NCBI GenBank assembly: GCA_013152945.1
Contig: JAADFL010000089.1
Coordinates: forward strand, 1-24,472
Reading direction: 5' to 3'
Length of the DNA: 24,472 bases
Source: Deltaproteobacteria bacterium
GTDB lineage: Bacteria; Myxococcota_A; JAADFL01
Positions 4,037 to 24,466 of the stretch are shown in pieces. The notes below the pieces were generated by a model. The model had not been told where the DNA came from. It made no database searches and worked only from the letters and a program-made list of their open reading frames with translations. The position numbers were made by a program, and so were the translations under genes. Each line of letters begins with the position of its first letter. The stretch's first letter is position 1.

Positions 4037-5263
4037 TTGGTTTTAATTTTATTGGCTTTTATCTCATTTTTAATAACAGATGGTATCACTTTGACTAAGA
4101 GTTCACTCATTACATTGTTTATCTTTATTTTTATTTTCTTGATATGTGTTTATTTAATAAAAAGGTACGGGAAATTAGAGAAGTCAAAATTGTTTGCTTT
4201 TTTATTAATTAATATGCTTTTTTCTAGTTTATTATTACCAAATAAATTATATGCGCGAGAAAAAAATAAACTTCATGAACTCGATCTTGTGGAGGCAAAT
4301 GGCGGTGACTATATAGATTATTTCTCAACTGATATAAAAGATTTTTATCATCCCAAAAAATCATCGCGGTATCCCTCTGCGAATCTATTCGATGGTTCGT
4401 TCAATACCTGCTGGGTGGCTGGTAATTCAAAAACAGGTAAAAGCAACTTCCTTTATGTTAAATTACCCGAAAAAATTGAACTCAATAAAATTATACTCAA
4501 TATTTTTCCGGGTTATGGGAAAAGCAGAATACTTTATTATAAAAATTGCCGGCCCAAAAAACTGAAAGTATCAATTTATGCAGCAATAAAGCCCGATGGA
4601 TATGCAACAGAAGTTTCTGATAGGTTTTTAGTTAAAAAATATTCATTAGAAAAGTATCTTGAATTAAAAGACAGCTTTGGAATACAATCTTTTCCGTTGA
4701 ATTTAGATAAAAATAATCTGCTTGATTTTCAAAAAGCAACAGAGAATGAATACAAATTATCTATGCATGATAAAAATGAATATATGTTAAAATTCACCTC
4801 TGTATTTATTTTGAAAATAGAAATAAAAGATGTATATAAAGGTAAACAATATGATGATATATGTATTTCGGAAATTTTTTTTAACAACCGATTTATCACA
4901 CCGTATCCGCTAAAATATAGAGAAGCAAAGAGGGTTTATATTAAAAATGGCAACACATTGGTTGCAGACTATATTAACGAACAAGGGGTGATTATTTTCA
5001 AAGATTTAAGCTCGATTTTTACAATGGTTGATTGGATCGCAAACGGAAATTATGCTGTTTTACATTATGTTACGAATGATGCAGGCGGAATTGGTACGCG
5101 AGTGGAAGAACAATATCACTTAGTCGATTTAAAAAACAGAAAGATAGTTGATAATGAATTTTATACTTACACGGGCGTTTCTATAATGTTTCAGGTGCTT
5201 GAAAAAGATAAATATGGAAGAATTTATATAGGCAATGATAAAAACAAAATTGAATTAAAATAG
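4037..5263 (+). CDS. Membrane protein with NADase-type glycan-binding-like domain
   Basis: About 408 residues from TTG 4037. Three hydrophobic segments lie at the N-terminus (about 2-15, 24-42, 52-70), ending near LYARE. The outer part contains a discoidin-like stretch: NLFDGSFNTCWVAG (117-130), then SNFLYVKLPEKIELNKIIL and a run of KN-rich strand ending PKKLKVSI. This matches the pattern of the NADase-type glycan-binding domain (FDG..(S/N)T.W.eG......i.i.....i..i.i..G), found on many cell-surface proteins. The C-terminal 100 residues look like beta repeats of unknown type. TTG is a weak start. A better one, ATG 3990 with GGAGAGG, lies in another frame and would join only by a -1 shift at the AAAAA run 4020-4024. 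Function unknown; strongly AT-rich. Confidence 0.6.
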   Translation: MVLILLAFISFLITDGITLTKSSLITLFIFIFIFLICVYLIKRYGKLEKSKLFAFLLINMLFSSLLLPNKLYAREKNKLHELDLVEANGGDYIDYFSTDIKDFYHPKKSSRYPSANLFDGSFNTCWVAGNSKTGKSNFLYVKLPEKIELNKIILNIFPGYGKSRILYYKNCRPKKLKVSIYAAIKPDGYATEVSDRFLVKKYSLEKYLELKDSFGIQSFPLNLDKNNLLDFQKATENEYKLSMHDKNEYMLKFTSVFILKIEIKDVYKGKQYDDICISEIFFNNRFITPYPLKYREAKRVYIKNGNTLVADYINEQGVIIFKDLSSIFTMVDWIANGNYAVLHYVTNDAGGIGTRVEEQYHLVDLKNRKIVDNEFYTYTGVSIMFQVLEKDKYGRIYIGNDKNKIELK

Positions 5264-11200: not shown

Positions 11201-12706
11201 TCAACTCCCTGCACTATCCTTCAAGTCGAAATACATGTACAAGTACGGTTCTTCGCTCCCGCGAACTTCGAAGGATTTGTAGAGCATCTCCGAAGGAGAA
11301 GCCAATATCCAAGGTAGTACGGTTTCCATGTTTCTGGATATCAGCCTTGAAATCAAATATTCCAACCCTTTTTCTGCATTCTTCTGACTGGTTTTTTCAG
11401 AAAACATTTCGTTGAACAAAGGGGAATCATGTACAAAGCCGCTGCATTCCATCGATGCAGCCGGTCCATCTTCTCCTTGAATGAACTTCAATGTCAATTT
11501 CATACTCATCGAGCCGCCACTCAAGCGCACAAATGCATCATCCATCAAAAAATACAAATCCGCCGATAAACCGCTCAAATCTATCATCAATGATTCACCT
11601 GTAAAATACAATGACGGCTCCAGTTTCGGCCTCAATCTAAGCAATAGGGGCGCTTTGGGTGCAAGTTCTTCCAAACCGGGAAACCATTTTTCCAGATCAT
11701 TGGTCGTCGGTCCGTTCAGAAGTGACGTACTATATAAATCAATGTCCAGAAGTCCGCTATTAAAAGCCGAGTCGAACAATTGTTCTATTACTGATTTTCT
11801 AAAGGCTATCGCATAGTCATAGCTGTCACCTTCCGGGTCCAAGTCCGGAAACGACGGAGGAGAATCGGCAGGTATCGGCCCTGGGGTTCCCTTGAGCCAC
11901 AATGGGGCTTCAAGAACCAATCCTTTTGAAGTCACTTCCAGGTTGGACTCACCAAGTGAAGCCCCCATTTCCAAGGCAGGTTTACCTACAGGTGGTATGG
12001 ACGAATCAATCTTGAAATACGAGTACGGTGATATGTCCAATCCCAGGTAAGTATCGCCGAGCTGGGTCAATCGGGGAGGAAATTCCTTAACAGCATCTAT
12101 GCAGGCCCTGGAAAACACCTTTGTCAATTCCTGCTTCAAGATATCTGCATGCTCGAAACCACAATCGTTCCCAAGATTGACCGATACTTGTCCAATACCT
12201 CCATTTGCATCAGCAACTATGAAAGAAGGCCCGTTCGCCCCTCCGGTTGGATCGAGGTCCACCAGAGACGAAACATCTTGCACATTCACCTCAACATCCT
12301 TGCATACGCTGACCAGTGCGCCGGAATCATACTGTGTTACGATAAGAGTAAATCTTACCGGTTTGAATTGGAGAATGAATTCAACTGTACCATCTTCTTG
12401 TGAAAAATCAGCGGACAGGCTTTCGGGCTGCATGTTTGCAACTGCTCTGGAATATTTGTAGTAGATCTTTCCATCCACGTCTATTGTTCCAGGTTCTACA
12501 ATTGCTTCGAATGTCATGTCGATCCGATCCAGTATCGTCTTGGTCCTGTTATCCAGACCGGATTTGGTCAACAGTGTGACAACCCCCTTTTCCGCGCCCT
12601 TGGACGGCTTACCCGCGTATTGCCGATAATCACAACCCGGTGAGCATCCTCCCGTTACGGACATGGCCAGACTGATTGCCGCTATTTTTGAAACCAACTG
12701 CTTCAT
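11201..12706 (-). CDS. Lipoprotein with lipid-binding-like beta domain
   Basis: About 501 residues from ATG 12706, which overlaps the upstream stop as ATGA; an ATG four codons earlier is possible. The N-terminus MKQLVSKIAAISLAMSVTGGCSPGC is a signal peptide with a degenerate lipobox (TGGC). The body is rich in beta segments and has no recognised catalytic motif. Residues about 300-415 (NSGLLDIDL, WFPGLEELAPKAPLLLRLRP, LMIDLSGLSADLYFLMDDAFVRL) line up in order and spacing with residues about 395-535 of the large protein upstream. Both recall the amphipathic strands of BPI/LBP-like lipid-binding folds, but that fold assignment is only a suggestion. It is probably an outer-membrane-anchored protein acting with its operon neighbours. 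Confidence 0.75.
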   Translation of the reverse strand: MKQLVSKIAAISLAMSVTGGCSPGCDYRQYAGKPSKGAEKGVVTLLTKSGLDNRTKTILDRIDMTFEAIVEPGTIDVDGKIYYKYSRAVANMQPESLSADFSQEDGTVEFILQFKPVRFTLIVTQYDSGALVSVCKDVEVNVQDVSSLVDLDPTGGANGPSFIVADANGGIGQVSVNLGNDCGFEHADILKQELTKVFSRACIDAVKEFPPRLTQLGDTYLGLDISPYSYFKIDSSIPPVGKPALEMGASLGESNLEVTSKGLVLEAPLWLKGTPGPIPADSPPSFPDLDPEGDSYDYAIAFRKSVIEQLFDSAFNSGLLDIDLYSTSLLNGPTTNDLEKWFPGLEELAPKAPLLLRLRPKLEPSLYFTGESLMIDLSGLSADLYFLMDDAFVRLSGGSMSMKLTLKFIQGEDGPAASMECSGFVHDSPLFNEMFSEKTSQKNAEKGLEYLISRLISRNMETVLPWILASPSEMLYKSFEVRGSEEPYLYMYFDLKDSAGS

Positions 12707-13956
12707 GGGTTGTTCCATTGCAGTAACTGCATGGTTCCCGCCAGCTTGTTGTTTTTACCGGTGCCTGGCAGGTAATGGCAAATATAAACCGCACCACTAT
12801 CTCCCACCATGATATCGGTCCAAAAGCCTGCCGATACCTGTATTGCTCCGCCGGGAGCCTGTGTATGCCAGCCCTTGCCGTCCTTGAATGCAACCAGCAG
12901 GTCCAGGTTGGTTGAATCCTGGTATGCCACCACCGGCCTTTGATTCCGGTCAAAAGCCAGTGATGCAAATTGCCCCTTGCTGGTATTACCGTTGCCCGAA
13001 TCTATGGTCTCGACAGCAGCCTTGCCGTCCGGACCCGGACGTGCAAAGAGCAATGATCCCTCTGTGGCATCGAAATATGCTATTCCAAAATCACCTGCGG
13101 TCGATACTGCAGCTGAACACCATCGCCCCACATCATGCTTCACCTCTTGGCCTGAAAGCGCTGATACCCTTTTACCATCATCCACCACAATCGAGCCGAA
13201 GCCGTTCACGCCCTGAGCCGCCAGTTTCAAAACTCTTTCCTTTAAATCATAATATGCTATCCGTAATCCCCCTTGCGGCATCACGATCAAGGATGCGTAT
13301 TCTCCGGAACCATCGATATCCACCACCTGGACCTTCCACGTGCTCCCTTGTTTCCAGGCCAACCGGAGTTGCATGGCCGTCCCATGGCCTGCCGCGTAAG
13401 CAATCAATGGCCGGCCCGCTGTATCCAGGGCGATAGATGAATAACGGCCCGCATCGTCTTTATGGTCGACCACTTGTATCTTCCATCCTTGAAGGTCATG
13501 GACAGCGTACCTCAAGGATTGGCTTTGCGCGTCATAATAGGAAAGGTGCAAAGAGCCGTCCTTGCCAACAGCCAGGTCGGCGTACCTCCCAACATCCGGA
13601 TCCGATCCAGCCGAACTTGGCGCTCCATCTATAGATGTAAGAACCGGGGGCTTATCCGGATCAGAGAAGGAAAGCAGTTCAAGGTCTCCAAAGTCGGCCG
13701 AGTACGTCGCTGCAAATATGGTTCCTGATTTATCCATTCCCAGGCTGCAATACCGTCCGATGTCATTCGGCGGTTCGGGCCTGGACAACGGGATACAGGC
13801 ACCTGTTTCCTGGTTGCACCTCGTACCAGGCGGACAATGATCCGGCCCTTGGCATCGTGAAGGTGTCGAACCTGGCATATTGCATGACAAAAGCAGGCTC
13901 GACCAAACAAAGGAAAACCACAATATCGCGATGCGGGTCGAATATGAACCTGCCAT
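12703..13956 (-). CDS. Seven-repeat beta-propeller lipoprotein
   Basis: A 417-residue protein with signal peptide and lipobox LLSC (C25), then one small cysteine module (C35-C54: CQGPDHCPPGTRCNQETGAC). After it come seven repeats of about 45-55 residues starting near 65, 121, 168, 216, 275, 326 and 375. Each has the pattern D.G(R/x)(Y/F/W).S(L/I)..D..G...(I/V)AYYD......L.(Y/L)A, for example DVGRYADLAV, DAGRYSSIAL and DVGRWCSAAV. Seven copies predict a seven-bladed propeller. Such repeats are widespread in secreted proteins of unknown function, so a binding role is the cautious reading. AAGGA lies six to seven bases before the ATG, and the start follows the upstream stop by 20 bases. It shares architecture with the C-terminal half of the upstream gene. 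Confidence 0.8.
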   Translation of the reverse strand: MAGSYSTRIAILWFSFVWSSLLLSCNMPGSTPSRCQGPDHCPPGTRCNQETGACIPLSRPEPPNDIGRYCSLGMDKSGTIFAATYSADFGDLELLSFSDPDKPPVLTSIDGAPSSAGSDPDVGRYADLAVGKDGSLHLSYYDAQSQSLRYAVHDLQGWKIQVVDHKDDAGRYSSIALDTAGRPLIAYAAGHGTAMQLRLAWKQGSTWKVQVVDIDGSGEYASLIVMPQGGLRIAYYDLKERVLKLAAQGVNGFGSIVVDDGKRVSALSGQEVKHDVGRWCSAAVSTAGDFGIAYFDATEGSLLFARPGPDGKAAVETIDSGNGNTSKGQFASLAFDRNQRPVVAYQDSTNLDLLVAFKDGKGWHTQAPGGAIQVSAGFWTDIMVGDSGAVYICHYLPGTGKNNKLAGTMQLLQWNNP

Positions 13957-13976: not shown

Positions 13977-16900
13977 CTATTTCTTGACTATCTTGAATGT
14001 ACTTGAATACGGGTCAGTCTTGAGATTGTAAACAAAAGAACCGACCAGTAGTCCTTCCGGTGCCAGAACCTGTCCGACATAGAACCCCCAAGCCCCTGTG
14101 AACAACTCGGGTGAATCCGGGTCCCAAGCCGGGTCTTTCAAAACATTCAATGAAAATGCATCTCCATCAGGAGCAAGCACGGCTTGGCGCAACTCGTGAC
14201 TCGTCGAATCACCGTATGCCACCCACAAGGCACCGCTTTTATCGAAGTCAGGGGAAGCATCACCGTTGATCCTGTTGACTGATATTACGTTTCCATCCTT
14301 GTCCTTTCTGAAGCCGTCATCCACTACTTTTACAACAGCTTGAGTCATATCCAAGTACAGCAGGTCATCCAGATCGGCATCCACATAAAGAACGTGCATG
14401 CCTCCGGACCCGTCCATTACGAGTCTGCAGAATCTTCCCACGTCGCCCGTATCGTTTCCATCCTTGTCTTCCCCATCCAGGAGGGTCGTCTGGAATGCAC
14501 CTGAAACAAATTTTGTCAACATAAGGTTACCCGTGCCCACGTACCCGCCTTGATCCGGATCGTATGAATCCCTGTCATAGTAGACAATGTTCGGCGCACC
14601 GTCCTGATCAAAAGCCAGGTCGGCGAAGAGTCCCGAACCATGCGGCAAATCCACGAGCGAAGGCGCCTGCACCGTGTCGCGGCAATTACCGTTGTCACAG
14701 GCCTGCCCTTTTGCACAGGCCGGGTCACAGTCATCCGTAACAGGCTTGCATGTTGCCTCTCCCTTGAACAAGACCTCCTGATCACCACATTCCGGAATCA
14801 CGGGCGCCTTATCTCCCTGGTAGACATTCCAATCCCCGGCTCCGGCCGGATCCGGCCCGGCCGCCACCGCCAAGCGCAGGCCAGAGTTTCCATCCTGGTC
14901 TGACGCAGCCATGTACGCAATGAGAGGCGCGCCTGTGCCGGGATCGAGCGCAATTGATGTGTATAACCCTACATCCCCGGTGGAATCTACAGTGTACGTG
15001 GTCCAGCCGCTGTCCTGCGCCACACACTGGCCATTGGAGCATACCTGGAACGGATAGCAGCCGGGGTCACTACAGTCGTCGGTCGGATCAATGCAAGCTC
15101 CTGCAACGCAAGCCTGGCCTTCTTGACATCCTCCACACGGTTCATTGTACACGGCGTACTTCAAATCTTTGTTTGTTGCATCATAGTAGGCCACATGAAT
15201 TACCCCTGCCTGGTCAACCGCAACAGAGGTGTACAGGCCGACATCGTCTCCGGGATCCTCGATACCTTTTCTCGGGCCTGCCGGATCTGCACTGATATTC
15301 GAGTAATCATCCAAAAGGGCCGGCACACCGTCAACGAATTCCCAGGTTAAAGAATCATAGGCCCCGGTTCCAACCATGAGATCGCCGTAGGTCTCGTTGT
15401 ATGCCGTCACCACCACCTTATCCTCTCCCAGCGAGGCCATATCGGCGAACCTTCCATAGTAACCGGTTGCAAGCGGCGGCAAAGCCGTACAGGCACACTC
15501 CTCTCCGTCCATTTCACATGTATCTTCATTTATCTGGCCTTCCGAGATTACATCCAGGATATAACCGGGTCTACATGTTAACCCTTCACAAGCATCGGGC
15601 ACAGCCATGCATTCATCGGTCTTCCTGCAACAAAACTTTCCATCAGGGCAGGCGCCGCCGCATGGTTCACTGCACACGCACTGGCCGGTTCCCGTGTCGC
15701 AAACAGCCGGGTAATCCGGGTCCGGACACGAAAGATGCAACGGACTCCCCGGCTCCTGGCAATCCGCATCGGTAGAGCAACGCCTGTACTTGCACTTGCC
15801 CTGGTCGCAATACTGGTCCTCTCCGCAGTCCTCGTCCTTGAAACAATCCGGCGGCAAACAGATCCTGCTTCTCTTGTCACAGAAATAAAGATCCGGGCAG
15901 TCTTGGTCCGAGGCGCATATCTTGTAACATTTATCGCTTACACAAGCGAAGCCGTCACAGCATGGATTGCCCTTGTCATCACAGGCATCGTTGAGGACCC
16001 CGCATTCTCCTGTTCCCGTGTCAGTGTCGGTATCTGTATCCACGTCCGTGTCCGTGTCGCCTGCATGGTGACTAGGACTCGAGTCGGAACAAGAAACAAG
16101 TCCGGTCGAGAAAACACCCAGTAAGGCCAGGAGACTCAAAAGCTTCAAATACTTCGACACCGAGCCCTTCCTCGATACCAGTAAGGAGAGCATTACCGCC
16201 AGGAAAGCAAAGAGCATGCCACCCGGCATGTTGTCGCCGTTCACTGCGGAACAGCCGGAAGCGGGTGCTGTGCTGTTTTTCAACTTCAGGATTTTGGTGG
16301 CGGTATTCCCGGCCGGGTCTGTTGCTCTGGCACTTACCACGAGCAAGCCCTTGGGCAGCTTGTCAAGTTCGAGCTTCGAACCCCTGGTCCAGTCAACGAG
16401 TGTGTTTTTATCCTTCGTGACCTTGTAATATACTTGTACTTGGTCCGGCTTGTATACACCATCCCTGGCTAAAACACGAAGTACGTCGCCGTCTCTCGCA
16501 AACTTGAGCATTGGAGGCATGGAGTCCACTGTGAATTCGACCTTTGCCGGCGACGGATCCAAGGTCCTGTAATCACCTTCGAGCCTGGCTCTGACCTCGA
16601 TCACGTGTTTTCCCTGGAGTAACAGCCTGGGACTTCTTACCCTGACAGTGGTCGCCGGTGAGAATGCGGACCAGAGGCTGTCGTCCACCTTGTACGAGTA
16701 CTCGAGCCTTCCCTTACCTGCAGGCGGTTTTGAACCGGACAGGTTGAGTACCACCTGCGGTTCCTCCAGGCCTGGCCTGAATCGTTTCAGAAGCGGGTAG
16801 CGCGGGATGTTCAACTTTGCTATGACCGCCTTTGTGTCTACTGCAGGAGGAAGCGGATTTTGCGCCAGATCCAGGCTTCCGAAGATTGCAAATGCGGACC

Positions 16901-18728
16901 ATTTTTTCTGGCCCGGGTTGTCCGGATCGTCGATCTCCAATTCCGGTCTGATAGTCTTGATTTGAAGCTTAAAGCCCTGGAAGGCCGGTATCTGTATGGG
17001 GTTTAGATTTTGCATGAGCATAGGTAGAGCCATGTCGATCAACTGGGGCAACAAATTGGCCAGGGCGTCCGTGTTTTCCGCCACCAATTCACCGTTCGAC
17101 GCCTGCGTGTTTTCCAAGTCGATGCTTCCTATTACAGGTTGCACGGTGTTGTCGGGCAGGAATTCAAGGTTCAATCCTATGGACATGTCGAACTGCACCC
17201 TGAACAACCTGGTGAAACGCTGGTCAACCATGGCATAAAAATCCATGGCCATGTCTTTCATAATAATGGTCAAAAGCGGATCTTCGATAACCTTCTGACC
17301 GTCCTTGTTGAGGCAGAACCCGCTTGCGTCATCACACGTCGAGCCATCCGGACATGCATCACACTTGTAGTAAGAACCTTCTCCGATTTTTATATCTCCA
17401 GGGGCTCTCGGGTTCAGGGCCAAGGCCATGGGAGCATTCTTGCCCATGGTCAAGGTATTCAAAGACGGCAGGAGCAGTCCGAACAGGTTGGTGGATATCA
17501 TGTCGGACAAATCACTTCCAATGGAGATATTCAGCGCCCCTGATTCGTATATTGCGAACATGGCCTTGTCGAGGAATTCTTCGGATACACCGACACCGAA
17601 CATGTACGGGTCACCGTCCAATTCATTGCCGAAGTCAATCCGTTGCGCTGGCGGATCATCCGGAGGATCCGCAGGAGGCGCGAGAATCGAGCGTTCAGGC
17701 GCCATGATTCCGGTCATGATGCCGAGACTCAATCCGTCGTCAACAACCTCGGCATAACCCCCGGCATAAAGCCAGAGCCAAAGTTTTGCAGACAATCCGG
17801 GAGCCACCGACGAAAGCATGGCTCCGATGTCAGCTTCTCCCTCGGCACCGAGCGGAAGCGGAACGCATTTGTCCCCAACCATGCAGGTTCCGTTGTCACA
17901 CGTGGCACCACTGCCTGACGGGCAGTCCGCGGCAGTGTTGCACTGGGCGCACATCATGCTTGCCATTGCGTTGCTGACAGCGTCTTTTATTGAACCTGCC
18001 GCATAGTTTTTCAACACCCCTTCGAGCAACGGGAATATCCACTCCAATACTATTCCCAAGCCCGAGCAGTCCTTGAGCCCTATCTGCACGTTGTTCAAGT
18101 CAAACACGGGATCACCCATGTCCAGGGACAACAAGCCAGTATTCGGATCGATGTTCAAGTTTATATCCATGGTTGCAGGAAAGTTGTCAGAGTCCAGGGT
18201 CACCTTGCATTTCGTCCAACCAATACAGGCGTTGAAAGCCATGGGCGCGATCTTTATAGGTATTTGCTGGTGCAGGTTTGTGAGAACTATGGTGACCTTG
18301 ATATGGTTGGGGGGCGCGAGCTGCAGGCTCACATCCCCGATATCCACCGTGACATTGCATAGTTGTTGGTCGTATGTGCAAAGCTCATAACAAGCGCCGC
18401 CTCCCAGTGCCAAATTGGCCTTGCCTGTCGTGGCCGGGATAGGGAAGCTCAGCCCGTCCGGGAGGAAACTCGCGATGATCTCTGCAAAGTGGTCCTCCAC
18501 GAATGCAAAGCCATTGGAAGTCAGCCTCATCTGCACCGAATTGCCTGACTTGTCCTTTTGATCATCAGGAAAGCCGCCGGGTATTGCCGCACACCCTGTT
18601 CCTCCGCTGCCGCCTCCACACCCCAGATCACAGCTCATTCCGGATCCGTTACAGCCGATTGCCCTCGGCAAGAGCAAACCGACAGCAGCAGAAAGGGCAA
18701 GCCACCTTGTCCAGTTTTTTCGGTTCAT
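13977..18728 (-). CDS. Giant envelope protein: sorting-tail half fused in frame to a lipoprotein-propeller half
   Basis: 1583 residues from ATG 18728 (GGAGG eight bases upstream; an earlier in-frame ATG at 18755 is less well placed). Half one: signal peptide (ALSAAVGLLLPRAIGC), beta-rich lipid-binding-like region with small cysteine inserts (about 260-290 and 456-473), two Ig-like regions (about 660-820), then a MYXO-CTERM-like tail with GCS (about 825), a hydrophobic helix and SRKG. Half two begins at once with a second signal peptide and lipobox LVSC (877-880), a DTDTD linker (890-907), a cysteine-rich block to about 1080, and seven propeller repeats to the end. Two of these are followed by cysteine-rich inserts. 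An internal GTG (16160) with GAGGAAGG could start half two separately. Two proteins or one fusion cannot be decided from sequence. Confidence 0.8.
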   Translation of the reverse strand: MNRKNWTRWLALSAAVGLLLPRAIGCNGSGMSCDLGCGGGSGGTGCAAIPGGFPDDQKDKSGNSVQMRLTSNGFAFVEDHFAEIIASFLPDGLSFPIPATTGKANLALGGGACYELCTYDQQLCNVTVDIGDVSLQLAPPNHIKVTIVLTNLHQQIPIKIAPMAFNACIGWTKCKVTLDSDNFPATMDINLNIDPNTGLLSLDMGDPVFDLNNVQIGLKDCSGLGIVLEWIFPLLEGVLKNYAAGSIKDAVSNAMASMMCAQCNTAADCPSGSGATCDNGTCMVGDKCVPLPLGAEGEADIGAMLSSVAPGLSAKLWLWLYAGGYAEVVDDGLSLGIMTGIMAPERSILAPPADPPDDPPAQRIDFGNELDGDPYMFGVGVSEEFLDKAMFAIYESGALNISIGSDLSDMISTNLFGLLLPSLNTLTMGKNAPMALALNPRAPGDIKIGEGSYYKCDACPDGSTCDDASGFCLNKDGQKVIEDPLLTIIMKDMAMDFYAMVDQRFTRLFRVQFDMSIGLNLEFLPDNTVQPVIGSIDLENTQASNGELVAENTDALANLLPQLIDMALPMLMQNLNPIQIPAFQGFKLQIKTIRPELEIDDPDNPGQKKWSAFAIFGSLDLAQNPLPPAVDTKAVIAKLNIPRYPLLKRFRPGLEEPQVVLNLSGSKPPAGKGRLEYSYKVDDSLWSAFSPATTVRVRSPRLLLQGKHVIEVRARLEGDYRTLDPSPAKVEFTVDSMPPMLKFARDGDVLRVLARDGVYKPDQVQVYYKVTKDKNTLVDWTRGSKLELDKLPKGLLVVSARATDPAGNTATKILKLKNSTAPASGCSAVNGDNMPGGMLFAFLAVMLSLLVSRKGSVSKYLKLLSLLALLGVFSTGLVSCSDSSPSHHAGDTDTDVDTDTDTDTGTGECGVLNDACDDKGNPCCDGFACVSDKCYKICASDQDCPDLYFCDKRSRICLPPDCFKDEDCGEDQYCDQGKCKYRRCSTDADCQEPGSPLHLSCPDPDYPAVCDTGTGQCVCSEPCGGACPDGKFCCRKTDECMAVPDACEGLTCRPGYILDVISEGQINEDTCEMDGEECACTALPPLATGYYGRFADMASLGEDKVVVTAYNETYGDLMVGTGAYDSLTWEFVDGVPALLDDYSNISADPAGPRKGIEDPGDDVGLYTSVAVDQAGVIHVAYYDATNKDLKYAVYNEPCGGCQEGQACVAGACIDPTDDCSDPGCYPFQVCSNGQCVAQDSGWTTYTVDSTGDVGLYTSIALDPGTGAPLIAYMAASDQDGNSGLRLAVAAGPDPAGAGDWNVYQGDKAPVIPECGDQEVLFKGEATCKPVTDDCDPACAKGQACDNGNCRDTVQAPSLVDLPHGSGLFADLAFDQDGAPNIVYYDRDSYDPDQGGYVGTGNLMLTKFVSGAFQTTLLDGEDKDGNDTGDVGRFCRLVMDGSGGMHVLYVDADLDDLLYLDMTQAVVKVVDDGFRKDKDGNVISVNRINGDASPDFDKSGALWVAYGDSTSHELRQAVLAPDGDAFSLNVLKDPAWDPDSPELFTGAWGFYVGQVLAPEGLLVGSFVYNLKTDPYSSTFKIVKK
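16008..16061 (-). repeat. Thr-Asp microsatellite linker
   Basis: A short-period DNA repeat (near-repeats of GTGTCx on the plus strand) encodes alternating Thr-Asp (DTDTDVDTDTDTDTGTG) just after the internal lipobox. Such linkers are typical after lipidated cysteines in myxobacterial surface lipoproteins. It could vary in length by slippage. Confidence 0.7.
16158..16175 (-). promoter_or_regulatory. Internal ribosome-binding site and GTG start within the giant gene
   Basis: On the minus strand GAGGAAGGG is followed by CTCG and then GTG (16160-16158), in frame with the large gene and 20 codons before the internal lipobox LVSC. It would begin a free-standing lipoprotein of 727 residues. Confidence 0.5.
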
Positions 18729-18784
18729 TCCCATTCCCTCCAGAGGACCAGGCATTTCCTGATCCAGGCATGACTGAAGCTCGT

Positions 18785-18931: not shown

Positions 18932-18970
18932 ATTTTCATGCGTAATTTTCATGCGCAATTTTCAGGCGTA
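18932..18970. repeat. Three tandem 13-base repeats
   Basis: ATTTTCATGCGTA, ATTTTCATGCGCA and ATTTTCAGGCGTA follow one another without gaps. The third unit contains the stop codon (TGA, 18964-18962) and last codons of the downstream-ending radical SAM gene on the minus strand, so the array may have grown by duplicating the gene's end. Confidence 0.85.
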
Positions 18971-19978
18971 CAATGTATGCAGCAGTTTGCCTGCTTGACC
19001 AGGCAATAGCGACCTCCAGGGCTTTTCCAGAATTCCTGAAAAGAAGAGAGAATCATCCCTTGTACAGCCCGGACATTTGAGGGTCGCGCCATAGCGCTCC
19101 TTGTGCCCCGCCTCCAGTATTTGTACAAGAGGGCGATCCCTGACATTACCTATTGGAACCGGAAAGGACACACATGCGGAAACAGTTCCTTCCGGCATGA
19201 GGCCGATATGTAAATGTTTTTCCGGAAAGCAACTGGCATGGCCCTGCCTGCGCAGGTTGAGCAAATGTTCAAAAAATTCCTTTTCCTGCAGGATGAATCC
19301 GGGTGATTCTTCCTTTATTTGAATGAGCTGCTCCAAGGCTGCAGGCAAGGTGCTCTCTTCGGGTCTGTATTTAGGTATCAAGTTTTCTTTCAAGCACACC
19401 TGGTCAACTCCCATACCACGCAGCATGCTCACGAATTTTGGCATGTCAGCTATGTTCAAGTGGTTCAATATCGTACTGACGCAAACCCTGGTGTGCCTCC
19501 TCTTGGAAAGAAGGTGCCTCAAGGTACGCATGGCCCGATCCCATGCGCCGCTCCCCCGCATCGCATCGTTTGCATCCCTGGAACCATCAATGGATATCCA
19601 AATCTTGAAAAACCTGCCATCTACCTTATCCAGGTCGTTCCTGGAAATATCTTGACCGTTTGAAACAACATCCACTGTTATTCCGCCTTGCTGTGCCCGT
19701 TCTGCTATAGGGAACAAGTCCTTGCAAAGAAACGGCTCACCTCCGACCAGTGTCAGATAGGGTTGTTTCAATTCGATCAGTTGTTCCAGGAGATCGAATC
19801 GTTGGGTACTTGTCAGTGGCCTTGCCTTTGGGAAGTCTCGTGCGAAAAAGAAACATCCCTTACACTGTAACTGGCATTTGGAGGTCAAGTACCAGGAAAT
19901 CAGGAAAGGCAGCCGTTTGCCCATCCAATATTGTATCGCCCTGTTTGCAAACCTGTAATATGTCTCACTTCCATACAT
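18962..19978 (-). CDS. Radical SAM enzyme with C-terminal cysteine cluster (copy 1)
   Basis: 338 residues from ATG 19978, with GGTGAGG just upstream; a GTG eight codons earlier is possible but lacks support. The radical SAM motif is C35-C39-C42 (SKCQLQCKGCFFF), followed by the SAM-binding GGEP in TLVGGEPFLCKDLF. The C-terminal part carries four more cysteines: HASCF, SACVSF and CPGC, with the phrase PIGNVRDRPL typical of SPASM-like domains that hold an auxiliary iron-sulfur cluster. Such enzymes often modify peptides or proteins, but others act on small molecules. It is clearly paralogous to the next gene throughout its length, 74 bases away and in the same direction. The substrate is unknown; no precursor peptide is visible nearby. 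Confidence 0.85.
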   Translation of the reverse strand: MYGSETYYRFANRAIQYWMGKRLPFLISWYLTSKCQLQCKGCFFFARDFPKARPLTSTQRFDLLEQLIELKQPYLTLVGGEPFLCKDLFPIAERAQQGGITVDVVSNGQDISRNDLDKVDGRFFKIWISIDGSRDANDAMRGSGAWDRAMRTLRHLLSKRRHTRVCVSTILNHLNIADMPKFVSMLRGMGVDQVCLKENLIPKYRPEESTLPAALEQLIQIKEESPGFILQEKEFFEHLLNLRRQGHASCFPEKHLHIGLMPEGTVSACVSFPVPIGNVRDRPLVQILEAGHKERYGATLKCPGCTRDDSLFFSGILEKPWRSLLPGQAGKLLHTLYA

Positions 19979-20052
19979 ATTGACCTCACCCAATTGGTTC
20001 ACAATTCCATAAGCTTTCCGGATCCTGCACCTTTAAGTTGGTGCCGTATGTC

Positions 20053-21063
20053 TCACAATGTGTAAATCAATTTTGCAACCTGGCTCGGTAAAAATGCCTT
20101 CCAGGGCCTTTCCAGGAACCGCAGGAAGAACATGGAATCACTCCTCGTGCATCCCGGACATTGAGCAGCCTCTGCATAACGCTCTTTCGGTCCCGGCTTC
20201 AAAATTTCAACAAGAGGTTTCTCCTTGACATTGCCAATCGGCACAGGAAAAGACACACATGCCGATACCGTGCCCTCGGGCAACAAGGCGATGTGCAGGT
20301 GCTTGTCCAGAAAACACCTTGCATGACCATCCTGTCGCAGACCGGGCAGCTCTTCCAAAAACTCCATCTCCTGTCTGATGAAGCCCGGAAATTCCTTTTT
20401 TATCTGTTTTATCTTGTCGAGTGTAATCATCAGTGTCTCATCATCGACACGCAGGCTCGGGATCAGGTTGTCCTTGAAACAAATCTGTTCGACCCCGATG
20501 TCATGAAGCATGCGCAGGAAATCGGGCATTTGTGAGGCATTGTGACGATTCAACACAGTGCTGACTCCTACCCTGGTATACTTTCTTCTGGAAATTAGTT
20601 GTTTCAGGCTGTACATGGCTCGATCATATGTGCCCGGCCCGCGATTTGCTTCATGGGCTTCCTTTGGACCGTCGACAGATATCCATATCTTGAAAAAAGA
20701 CCCATCCACCCGCTCCAGATCCTGTTCGGAAATATCCAGTCCGTTTGTGGTGACCTCTACTGCGATTCCGCCGGCCATGGAGCGTTGTGCAATCGGGAAC
20801 AAATCCTTGCAACGAAAAGGTTCTCCTCCGAGAAGAGTCAAATACGGTTGTTTCAATTCAATGAGCTGGTCCACCAGCTCGAACCTCTGGGAAGTAGACA
20901 ACGGCTCTCCCCTTGGGAAACTCCTGGAAAAAAAGAAACATCCGCCACAGCGAATCTGGCATTCCGAGTTGACGAACCAGGACATTCTGAAAGGCAGCCG
21001 CAATCCGGACCAATACTGGAGAGATCTGTTGGCAAACCTCAAATAGGTAGTGAAAAGATTCAT
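20053..21063 (-). CDS. Radical SAM enzyme with C-terminal cysteine cluster (copy 2)
   Basis: 336 residues from ATG 21063, with GGAGGG six bases upstream. The cluster motif is SECQIRCGGCFFF (Cx3Cx2C, residues 35-42), then GGEPFRCKDLFPIAQ. The same four C-terminal cysteines as copy 1 are kept (HARCF, SACVSF, CPGC). Long identical stretches (LIELKQPYLTL, TVSACVSFPVPIGNV) show a tandem duplication. Differences are concentrated around residues 150-250, where substrate contacts would be expected, suggesting divergence of specificity. It is the first gene of a two-gene minus-strand unit, divergent from the FemAB-like gene across a 136-base gap. Confidence 0.85.
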   Translation of the reverse strand: MNLFTTYLRFANRSLQYWSGLRLPFRMSWFVNSECQIRCGGCFFFSRSFPRGEPLSTSQRFELVDQLIELKQPYLTLLGGEPFRCKDLFPIAQRSMAGGIAVEVTTNGLDISEQDLERVDGSFFKIWISVDGPKEAHEANRGPGTYDRAMYSLKQLISRRKYTRVGVSTVLNRHNASQMPDFLRMLHDIGVEQICFKDNLIPSLRVDDETLMITLDKIKQIKKEFPGFIRQEMEFLEELPGLRQDGHARCFLDKHLHIALLPEGTVSACVSFPVPIGNVKEKPLVEILKPGPKERYAEAAQCPGCTRSDSMFFLRFLERPWKAFLPSQVAKLIYTL

Positions 21064-22291: not shown

Positions 22292-24466
22292 TCAGGGTCG
22301 GCCTATATCCACGAACACGTGCATGGCCTTGCCGTCGTAAGGTGTCTCGCCACACCTGGCATGAGCCCAGTCCCCGCCGACTGCAGAGCACATGCGAAAT
22401 AAGGTCACTTCCCGGAGCGAGACATCGAGGTTTGCCGTGGTACAACGTCCGTTGAAGTCGTATTCCAACTCGTGTCCGATGACAGCGGCGCCTACGCAAG
22501 GTGCATACCACTGCCCGCTCTTGAGCCGCACGTCCAGGGAATACTCGGCATTCGTCTGCATCTCGTTCCACTCGAGGACGACAAGTTCAGTCCTGCCTCC
22601 GGGCAGCTCGATTGACACGTGGTCCGATACACCGTCATAAGCCTTGTCCACGTAGTGCACCCATTGCCCGTCATCCGAGTAGAACAATCTGAAATAAGCC
22701 ACGTCCCATTTCGATGCAAGCTGGTCCTGTTTGCTCGGACAAATCCCCCTGTAATCTACCGACAGTTTCGAGCCGATGATTCCGCTCGATATACACGGAC
22801 CGATCCAGCGCCCGTCCTTGAGCACTACGTCCAGGGAGTACTGGGTATTATCAAGCCTGTTCCAGGTCACCCTGACTTGGTCCCGGTCCACCAGCCTGCC
22901 GTCCTGCTCGAAAAAGAGGCGCTGGCGGTACGTGTCCCTCCTGTTGGCATAACTGCCATTTTCAAAAACCCCCTGGTGATAGAATATGTAGTATTCTCCC
23001 CTGTGTTCCACGACAGAATCGTGACCGTGATTTTGGATGAGATCGCCGTTGGAGGCCTTCAAGGGCCAGGAGTACCTATACACATGCCTTGAACGTGTAA
23101 GCATGTACGGTGACGTGCCCATTACATAGTACATGGCATAAGGTCCTGTGAACCCGCCGCCGCTGAAGAAAAGGTAATCGATGTCGTTCCTCTCGAACAC
23201 GTCCGGTCCCTCCACCACATGCTTTTCGTACGCCTCCACGGGAGTGATATTGGTCATCACATCACCAGGCCGCTCCAGGGGAAACGAGGCTATGTTGTTT
23301 CCCTCCTCGAACCATACGTAGTACATCCACTGGTCGCCGTCGAAGTCGTGCAGGGCCGAGTCTATGCGAATAGCGTTTCTGCATCCGTCGGGCGGGCAGG
23401 AACTGCTGAAGTACGACCTCGGTGTGCCCCTGGGATTGTCAATGGGTTGCGGCCGGCCGAAGTCAGGACTCAGGCTCGGTGCTTCTGCATAGTAGGTGGT
23501 GAGGTTGTCGCACCCGGTGTTTGCCTGGCCCTTTGTAACGCGCTTGGCGCTGAAGTACAGGCGGTACTTACCATTGACGTAAGCGAAATCCGGCGCCCAG
23601 ACACAGTAATAATCGTATCCTGAATCCTTTTGAGAAGGATCATAGGTCGTTGCAAGATTAAAGTCTATCAGATCGCTTGAGACATATATTCCGAGGTTCC
23701 TGCCGGAAAGCGTGCCGGACAGCCAGAACAAGCCATTGTCGACCTTGATTACATCGGGATCTGCGAGTCCCGGCACAACCATTGAGGGGGAGCAGCCGCA
23801 GTCCATGCGGCCTCCACAGCCGTCGTCGATAATGCCCTGGCATAAAAGAGCCGGACTGCAGCCCAAGGGCATGCAAGGGCCTTCAGCCTCCGGCTCCATT
23901 TCAGGCTCCAGCTCATGCTCGGGCTTGAACTCACGGTTTGTCTCGATACCGTCCTGTACCGAGGTGTTATCTTTGAATTCTTTTTCGATCTCTCTGACAG
24001 CCTCTATCTCGGGCCATTGCTCCAGTCCTTGTTCGCTCTCGACCTGCTTTTCGTCGGCATCCGGCCACACCTGGTCCAGGACATCACGATCAGGTGTCTG
24101 GTCAGCGATATCCGTATAACCTTTATCGTTATCGTGTGCCTTATCGCCTGCCAAGTCTGCATCTTCCCAAAGTTTGTCTGCTGAATCGTTTCCTGCGTCC
24201 GCCCCTTCCGGTAACGTGCAACTTCCATGAACGCATGTGTACCCCTCCGGACACAGCACAGACCCGCATACACGGCCGGGATCTACGCACGATCCCTTGA
24301 AACAAATCATGGCGCCCAAGCAGTCATGATCGATCTTGCAGGCCCCGGATCCGGTGCATGAAACCATTGCCTGGACCATGGATAAAACAACGGTAAGGGC
24401 GAGGTGCACAAGAGCAAGACATGCCTTGTCCCTTACACGCAGGTAATCATTGAAGACATGGCTCAT
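22292..24466 (-). CDS. GH43-like lipoprotein with duplicated C-terminal domain
   Basis: 724 residues from ATG 24466, only six bases from the window edge, so its ribosome-binding site is not fully visible and a longer form is possible. Signal peptide with lipobox MVSC (C37), two cysteine modules (43-83), an acidic low-complexity linker (about 88-195) and a third cysteine group (198-225). A five-bladed-propeller glycosidase region follows from about 230: ADPDV (D236), WAPDF (D293) and VVEGPDVF (E419) match the Asp-Asp-Glu triad of glycoside hydrolase family 43, with HDSVV at 482-486. Residues 533-620 and 628-720 are two tandem copies of a domain with YSLDV.LK.G.W..PC...IG. Likely an outer-membrane-anchored polysaccharide-degrading or -binding protein; the substrate is unknown. 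Confidence 0.85.
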   Translation of the reverse strand: MSHVFNDYLRVRDKACLALVHLALTVVLSMVQAMVSCTGSGACKIDHDCLGAMICFKGSCVDPGRVCGSVLCPEGYTCVHGSCTLPEGADAGNDSADKLWEDADLAGDKAHDNDKGYTDIADQTPDRDVLDQVWPDADEKQVESEQGLEQWPEIEAVREIEKEFKDNTSVQDGIETNREFKPEHELEPEMEPEAEGPCMPLGCSPALLCQGIIDDGCGGRMDCGCSPSMVVPGLADPDVIKVDNGLFWLSGTLSGRNLGIYVSSDLIDFNLATTYDPSQKDSGYDYYCVWAPDFAYVNGKYRLYFSAKRVTKGQANTGCDNLTTYYAEAPSLSPDFGRPQPIDNPRGTPRSYFSSSCPPDGCRNAIRIDSALHDFDGDQWMYYVWFEEGNNIASFPLERPGDVMTNITPVEAYEKHVVEGPDVFERNDIDYLFFSGGGFTGPYAMYYVMGTSPYMLTRSRHVYRYSWPLKASNGDLIQNHGHDSVVEHRGEYYIFYHQGVFENGSYANRRDTYRQRLFFEQDGRLVDRDQVRVTWNRLDNTQYSLDVVLKDGRWIGPCISSGIIGSKLSVDYRGICPSKQDQLASKWDVAYFRLFYSDDGQWVHYVDKAYDGVSDHVSIELPGGRTELVVLEWNEMQTNAEYSLDVRLKSGQWYAPCVGAAVIGHELEYDFNGRCTTANLDVSLREVTLFRMCSAVGGDWAHARCGETPYDGKAMHVFVDIGRP

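Follow-up and report, generated by a model that had tools for sequence, protein, structure and literature searches.

In Myxococcus xanthus, MYXO-CTERM proteins are cleaved by the myxosortase MrtX, which needs their conserved cysteines and also works in E. coli (PMC11980579). The action of myxosortase is documented on C-terminal tails. Internal MYXO-CTERM motifs are rare, and cleavage at an internal tail has only been proposed, for MXAN_5598, whose authors suggest a gene fusion followed by processing of the N-terminal part (PMC11980579). Among bacterial lipid-binding proteins, the full-length BPI homologues of DUF4403 share a pseudodimeric double-TULIP fold (Levine 2019, PMC6791001). It is rare for a bacterial polyprotein to be divided into envelope proteins with separate anchors, and the open-access literature yielded neither a direct precedent for bacterial polyproteins with internal signals nor a documented instance of an internal signal being cleaved by LspA.

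Here we describe a gene in which a MYXO-CTERM-like tail runs directly into a second lipoprotein signal. It lies in a 24,472-nucleotide stretch of deltaproteobacterial DNA, referred to below as the window. MYXO-CTERM tails, lipoprotein signals, BPI-like folds and propellers are all known kinds of element, and internal sorting tags have been recorded as rare cases. The phylum-wide family that combines them, with the tail leading into a lipoprotein signal, appears to be undescribed, and no description of such a family was found in the open-access literature.

The fused gene occupies positions 13977..18755 on the minus strand, as do all of its parts given below, and forms a single open frame of 1592 codons that is free of stops across the junction. 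Residues are numbered from the ATG at 18755. Translation could instead begin nine residues further on, at the ATG at 18728, from which an earlier note on this DNA counted, such that residues 825-856 of that note are residues 834-865 here. The protein begins with a lipoprotein signal peptide (18651..18728) with the lipobox AIG-C35, whose cysteine is at least 90% conserved in alignment A2. There follow a predicted double-TULIP (BPI/CETP/LBP-like) lipid-binding module (residues ~70-631; 16863..18548), recognized by AlphaFold2, alignment with human BPI and Foldseek, and two FN3/Ig-like domains (residues ~637-828; 16272..16847), delimited by the AlphaFold2 model and structure alignment. The MYXO-CTERM-like tail comes next (residues 834-864; 16164..16256). 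Its letters, GCSAVNGDNMPGGMLFAFLAVMLSLLVSRKG, run from GC835 through a hydrophobic helix to SRKG864. The second lipoprotein signal, VSKYLKLLSLLALLGVFSTGLVSC, spans residues 866-889 (16089..16160), and the stretch leading to C889 is SVSKYLKLLSLLALLGVFSTGLVS, with the lipobox LVS-C889. The remaining C half (13980..16088) comprises an Asp/Thr-rich linker, a Cys-rich region and, according to AlphaFold2 and Foldseek, a beta-propeller resembling PLL lectins and sialidases.

Several neighboring genes were also noted. Two tandem, closely similar radical-SAM/SPASM-type genes (18962-20002 and 20053-21063, minus strand) lie just upstream of the fused gene, and the neighborhoods of the fused gene in other genomes yielded no relatives of the first of them. 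Positions 22292-24466 (minus strand) encode a lipoprotein in which a GH43 glycosidase domain follows a long acidic linker. On the plus strand, a gene for a NADase_transloc (F5/8 type C) domain protein (4037-5263) adjoins an AAA/DUF4143 ATPase gene. The stretch around 4037-5263 is markedly AT-rich, with 28% GC compared to ~50% for the rest of the window, and is possibly acquired DNA.

The tail of the window's protein scores 17.8 bits against TIGR03382 ('MYXO-CTERM sorting domain'; cut-off 15.85) when searched as a 50-amino-acid piece, and 13.7 bits, under the same cut-off, when it is embedded in a 154-amino-acid piece. MYXO-CTERM tails are found at the extreme C terminus, and the 20 other top-scoring tails of the window's genome all end 0-17 residues before the stop. 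In contrast, 728 residues come after the tail of the fused protein. Thus, with ordinary tails terminal and this one internal, the window holds a real, locally exceptional internal sorting tail. Among its relatives, TIGR03901 matches 69 of 77 family tails (best E value 3.4e-9; the window's row of alignment A1, 16134-16335, was in a wrong frame and left out of this count), and the tail of one member, L086, reaches 30.2 bits (cut-off 20). The cysteine corresponding to C835 is invariant in the 35-member N-half alignment A2 and at least 90% conserved in the 78-member junction alignment A5, and it stands in a GC or CxC context in 77 of 78 members. Elsewhere in the window's genome (L151, G000 contig C163), the gene of a CPBP-family protease is next to a divergent MYXO-CTERM metalloprotease gene; the best NCBIfam match of the protease is the archaeomyxosortase MrtA, under cut-off.

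The inner lipoprotein signal begins at residue 866 of 1592 rather than at an N terminus. Its cysteine provides the sole invariant column of alignment A5 and is also invariant in A3. The residue before this cysteine is Gly in 55 members, Ala in 19, Ser in 3 and His in 1, and is therefore Gly, Ala or Ser in 77 of 78, the cysteine having been assigned by eye in L058, L063, L078 and L113 before these statistics were compiled. For comparison, of the 135 hydrophobic stretches elsewhere in these proteins, just 11 are followed by [GAS]C. The distance between the two cysteines varies among members from 37 to more than 70 residues, as expected for a spacer.

To place the fusion in the phylum, we searched 282 of its genomes with the N half. 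Matches, some of them weak, were found in 108, mostly in frames of 1250-1700 codons. Open reading frames were extracted from 80 loci, and 77 match both halves, giving 78 fused ORFs with that of the window. These come from 18 family-level groups, the window's own and 17 others. The loci L044 and L096 are interrupted by contig ends. Eight Myxococcales/Polyangiaceae MAG loci were recovered separately, several of which overlap genomes already counted and are thus non-independent. Each junction was read individually, and both internal signals are present in all 78 fused ORFs. All share one pattern: a Cys motif, in many cases GCGC, leads into a hydrophobic helix, and an Arg/Lys cluster separates this helix from another hydrophobic stretch, after which comes a Cys. 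With 78 homologues in which Cys-TM-Arg/Lys precedes TM-lipobox Cys, the junction of tail and signal is not due to chance. The earlier note's observation of a sorting tail leading in frame and without a stop into a second lipoprotein signal is therefore borne out in the window and in 77 homologues alike; orthologues that are uniformly continuous are so with the tail and the inner lipobox, not without them.

These data also bear on how the fusion arose. The earlier note preferred the loss of a single stop codon, and mentioned an error of assembly as an alternative. TCG codons near the junction are indeed one base from TAG, and the assembly to which the window belongs is a draft in 218 contigs. 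However, 77 other ORFs from the phylum have the same continuous frame, among them ORFs of four single-contig genomes (G006, G085, G149 and G176), and the split forms described below nest inside fused lineages. A recent in-frame fusion confined to the window's genome, or a misassembly, is scarcely conceivable in view of these observations, and both were rejected: recent stop loss by the 77 fused homologues and the N-half tree, assembly error by the occurrence of the fusion in single-contig genomes. From the sequences compared, the fusion is an old arrangement that has been kept across the myxobacterial phylum.

The stop at the junction that the earlier note had proposed to look for in orthologues is absent from all 77 fused ORFs, but is present in three split members. 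In L045, ...GLRRRRRGEDQ* is the end of the N gene, and the C gene, a separate frame that lies just downstream, starts MSKTRLALLAALAALAFGC; L043, of the same genus, is fused. In L112, the N gene ends ...RRRSSRRDARTKAVK* and passes through a TGATGA overlap into a C gene starting MNARTCLVGALALTLAGVANPGC. In L092, the N half ends ...RRRRRVRPAND*, and the matching C half, L168, is on a different contig. The MYXO-CTERM tail is terminal in all three, and the inner signal is N-terminal in L045 and L112. In the N-half tree, which is unrooted and was built by a quick method, with the two-gene homologues of groups f4 and f34 left out, these three members nest inside fused lineages, such that three changes are needed. 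In the family-level groups f4 and f34, the halves are two adjacent, separate lipoprotein genes, and the N gene is devoid of both the FN3 domains and the MYXO-CTERM tail. Judging from the distribution of these forms, the fusion is old whichever came first, operon or fusion.

Unfused relatives of both halves also occur next to the fused gene itself. Directly downstream in the window, and in reversed order, are two stand-alone lipoproteins, first a paralogue of the C half (417 amino acids; 12703..13956, minus strand; A3 HMM E value 1.1e-52) and then one of the N half, which lacks the MYXO-CTERM tail (505 amino acids; 11201..12718, minus strand; A2 HMM E value 9.6e-11). The order fused, C-like, N-like is repeated in L066; L061 and L054 have the fused gene with a C-like one. 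The recurrence of these neighboring paralogues indicates that the two halves behave as a recurrent functional pair.

The C half might also be produced from a start of its own. A GTG codon (V866; 16158..16160, minus strand) is preceded a few bases upstream by GAGGAAGG, just as the earlier note described, and a textbook lipoprotein signal comes after it, as would suit nested genes in which an ordinary lipoprotein is made from this codon besides the full chain. The GTG is not conserved in relatives. We compared the junctions of 77 members (L058 was left out) with a null in which synonymous codons were drawn according to the usage of the gene concerned. Of the 77 junctions, 30 have an in-frame start, whereas 30.6 are expected, and 5 have a Shine-Dalgarno-plus-start combination, with 4.6 expected. 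The GTG and its upstream element are thus no feature of the family, conserved internal re-initiation was rejected for lack of enrichment over this null, and nested genes are a very unlikely explanation of the family. Such a start may nonetheless serve in the window's genome alone. Because the junction is not enriched for starts, the C half must, as a rule, be made and exported as a continuation of the full chain.

We consider it probable, from sequence comparison, that the fused protein is a conserved myxobacterial polyprotein that is cut by myxosortase and LspA into two lipid-anchored proteins. The two-anchor polyprotein had been offered in the earlier note as an alternative to stop loss, and is the reading favored by a continuous frame with both signals across 78 ORFs. 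In the proposed pathway, the chain would be exported via its N-terminal lipoprotein signal until the MYXO-CTERM helix stops transfer, leaving a short basic loop in the cytoplasm, and the second signal would then start export anew for the C half. At C889, Lgt and LspA would attach the lipid and cut before the cysteine, myxosortase would cut just after C835, and the hairpin of ~53 residues between the cuts would be discarded. The first product would be a BPI-like lipid-binding protein with FN3 domains that has an N-terminal anchor and is probably also anchored via C835. The second, a lipoprotein with an anchor of its own, would carry the lectin/sialidase-like propeller. The two would be made one to one and probably form a working pair at the outer membrane.

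The enzymes that this scheme calls for are present. The window's genome carries a myxosortase-family gene (L149; NF040914, 118 bits, cut-off 100) as well as LspA and Lgt, and the NF040914 family is present in all 32 sampled carrier genomes, in 31 of them over cut-off. Cutting is favored by the conservation of both cysteines, by the variable spacing between them and by split forms whose terminal signals are complete. The genomes compared show directly how the protein is laid out, that this layout is old, that the cysteines are invariant, that the splits fall exactly at the junction and that the enzymes are present; from these findings we infer the cuts, the lipids and the final location. The N-side cut is modeled on the proposal for MXAN_5598, to which we add the lipoprotein-type cut before C889.

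Some observations count against cutting. The basic cluster of the window's tail, SRKG, is a weak one, the tail scores near the MYXO-CTERM cut-off, and a fusion conserved this strongly could equally mean that the covalent link matters. The chain might then remain uncut, with its two hydrophobic segments forming a permanent helical hairpin (out-in-out, with the basic loop inside) that holds both extracytoplasmic domains on one inner-membrane chain. The basic loop between the helices agrees with a positive-inside topology. This arrangement leaves unexplained, however, why each helix has a conserved cysteine at its outer end and why 77 of 78 members have a [GAS]C lipobox. Moreover, the link is dispensable, as there are three split lineages, two of them with complete stand-alone signals, as well as two-gene versions. 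We regard a permanently uncut protein, the chief rival of the polyprotein reading, as unlikely, if worth keeping in mind.

It is also conceivable that the chain is cut only once. LspA might free the C-half lipoprotein before C889 while the N half keeps the hairpin remnant as an anchor, in the manner of 'lipo-invert' domains, or the reverse might occur. Junctions of 39 of the 78 members match NCBIfam NF058595 ('lipo-invert putative C-terminal anchoring domain') at E values up to 0.1, and another locus of the same genome (L177; G000 contig C130, 2449-2604) has a TM-KPKK-TM-LSC tail in a 584-codon frame, with ~44 residues after the match. Yet all ten members that were scored individually fall under the 37-bit cut-off of this model, with a best score of 23.2 bits and 18.9 bits for the window, and the split members L045 and L112 end in a terminal MYXO-CTERM-type tail. 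A single cut is thus distinctly improbable.

What the two products would do is suggested by predicted structures. The N half, modeled by AlphaFold2 with an alignment of 35 relatives, has a mean pLDDT of 81 and shows two TULIP domains in tandem, the fold of BPI. The model aligns with human BPI (1bp1) with a Z score of 16.8 over 437 residues, with CETP at 14.7 and with LBP at 12.1, compared to 7-8 for background rows, and its Foldseek E value is 2e-17. By sequence profile, the N half scores 14.7 bits against Pfam PF02886, below the gathering score of 23, and Pfam DUF4403 gives no match in 35 members at an E value of 0.1. The C half is modeled with a mean pLDDT of 84 (Foldseek E value 2e-11), and its propeller is nearest to those of PLL lectins and sialidases. 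These models point to lipid binding by the N half and glycan binding by the C half, a functional assignment that stays provisional because a shared fold does not prove function.

Taken at its fullest, the proposal is that myxosortase and LspA, two different intramembrane proteases, both act on a single chain and cut it at back-to-back signals of opposite topology, yielding a doubly lipid-anchored BPI-like lipid carrier and a lectin-like lipoprotein partner in a fixed 1:1 ratio throughout a phylum-wide family. We hold the chances of this combined claim to be even. Should the protein be processed as proposed, sorting tags of the C-terminal kind and lipoprotein signals are able to function in mid-chain, back to back. 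The fused protein would then be a natural reporter for myxosortase and LspA on one substrate, and would be relevant to the question of which enzyme attaches the lipid to the MYXO-CTERM cysteine. The family adds to the myxobacterial envelope a widespread bacterial relative of BPI-type lipid-binding proteins, together with a conserved propeller partner. For annotation, it serves as a warning that searches for sorting tags limited to protein ends miss a fused family of this kind.

Among described proteins, MXAN_5598 of M. xanthus (PMC11980579) is like the fused family in having an internal MYXO-CTERM motif between two envelope modules. It differs in being a rare case, encoded in a division cluster, that combines an adhesin with an outer-membrane barrel/OmpA part, whereas the fused family joins a BPI-like module to a propeller half that bears a lipoprotein signal and extends over 18 family-level groups. 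Terminal MYXO-CTERM proteins processed by MrtX, such as TraA (PMC11980579), have the same Cys motif, hydrophobic helix and basic cluster, but the tail of the fused family is internal, with another export signal directly after it and then an entire further protein. The models NF058595 ('lipo-invert') and NF033207 ('midcut-by-XrtH'), compared by name and score alone, suggest related layouts, namely a helix, basic loop and lipoprotein-like signal in the first case and a mid-protein sorting cut by exosortase H in the second; NF033207 weakly matches 4 of 78 members (13-14 bits where shown, cut-off 45). The DUF4403 proteins (Levine 2019) share with the N half a pseudodimeric double-TULIP fold like that of human BPI, whereas the fused family is devoid of a Pfam DUF4403 match and adds FN3 domains and a sorting tail. 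A further comparison is with the FbcH cytochrome b/c1 precursor of Bradyrhizobium, a bacterial polyprotein that is cut at an internal signal sequence; unlike the fused family, it relies on a cut of the signal peptidase I type and has neither a sorting tail nor lipid anchors.
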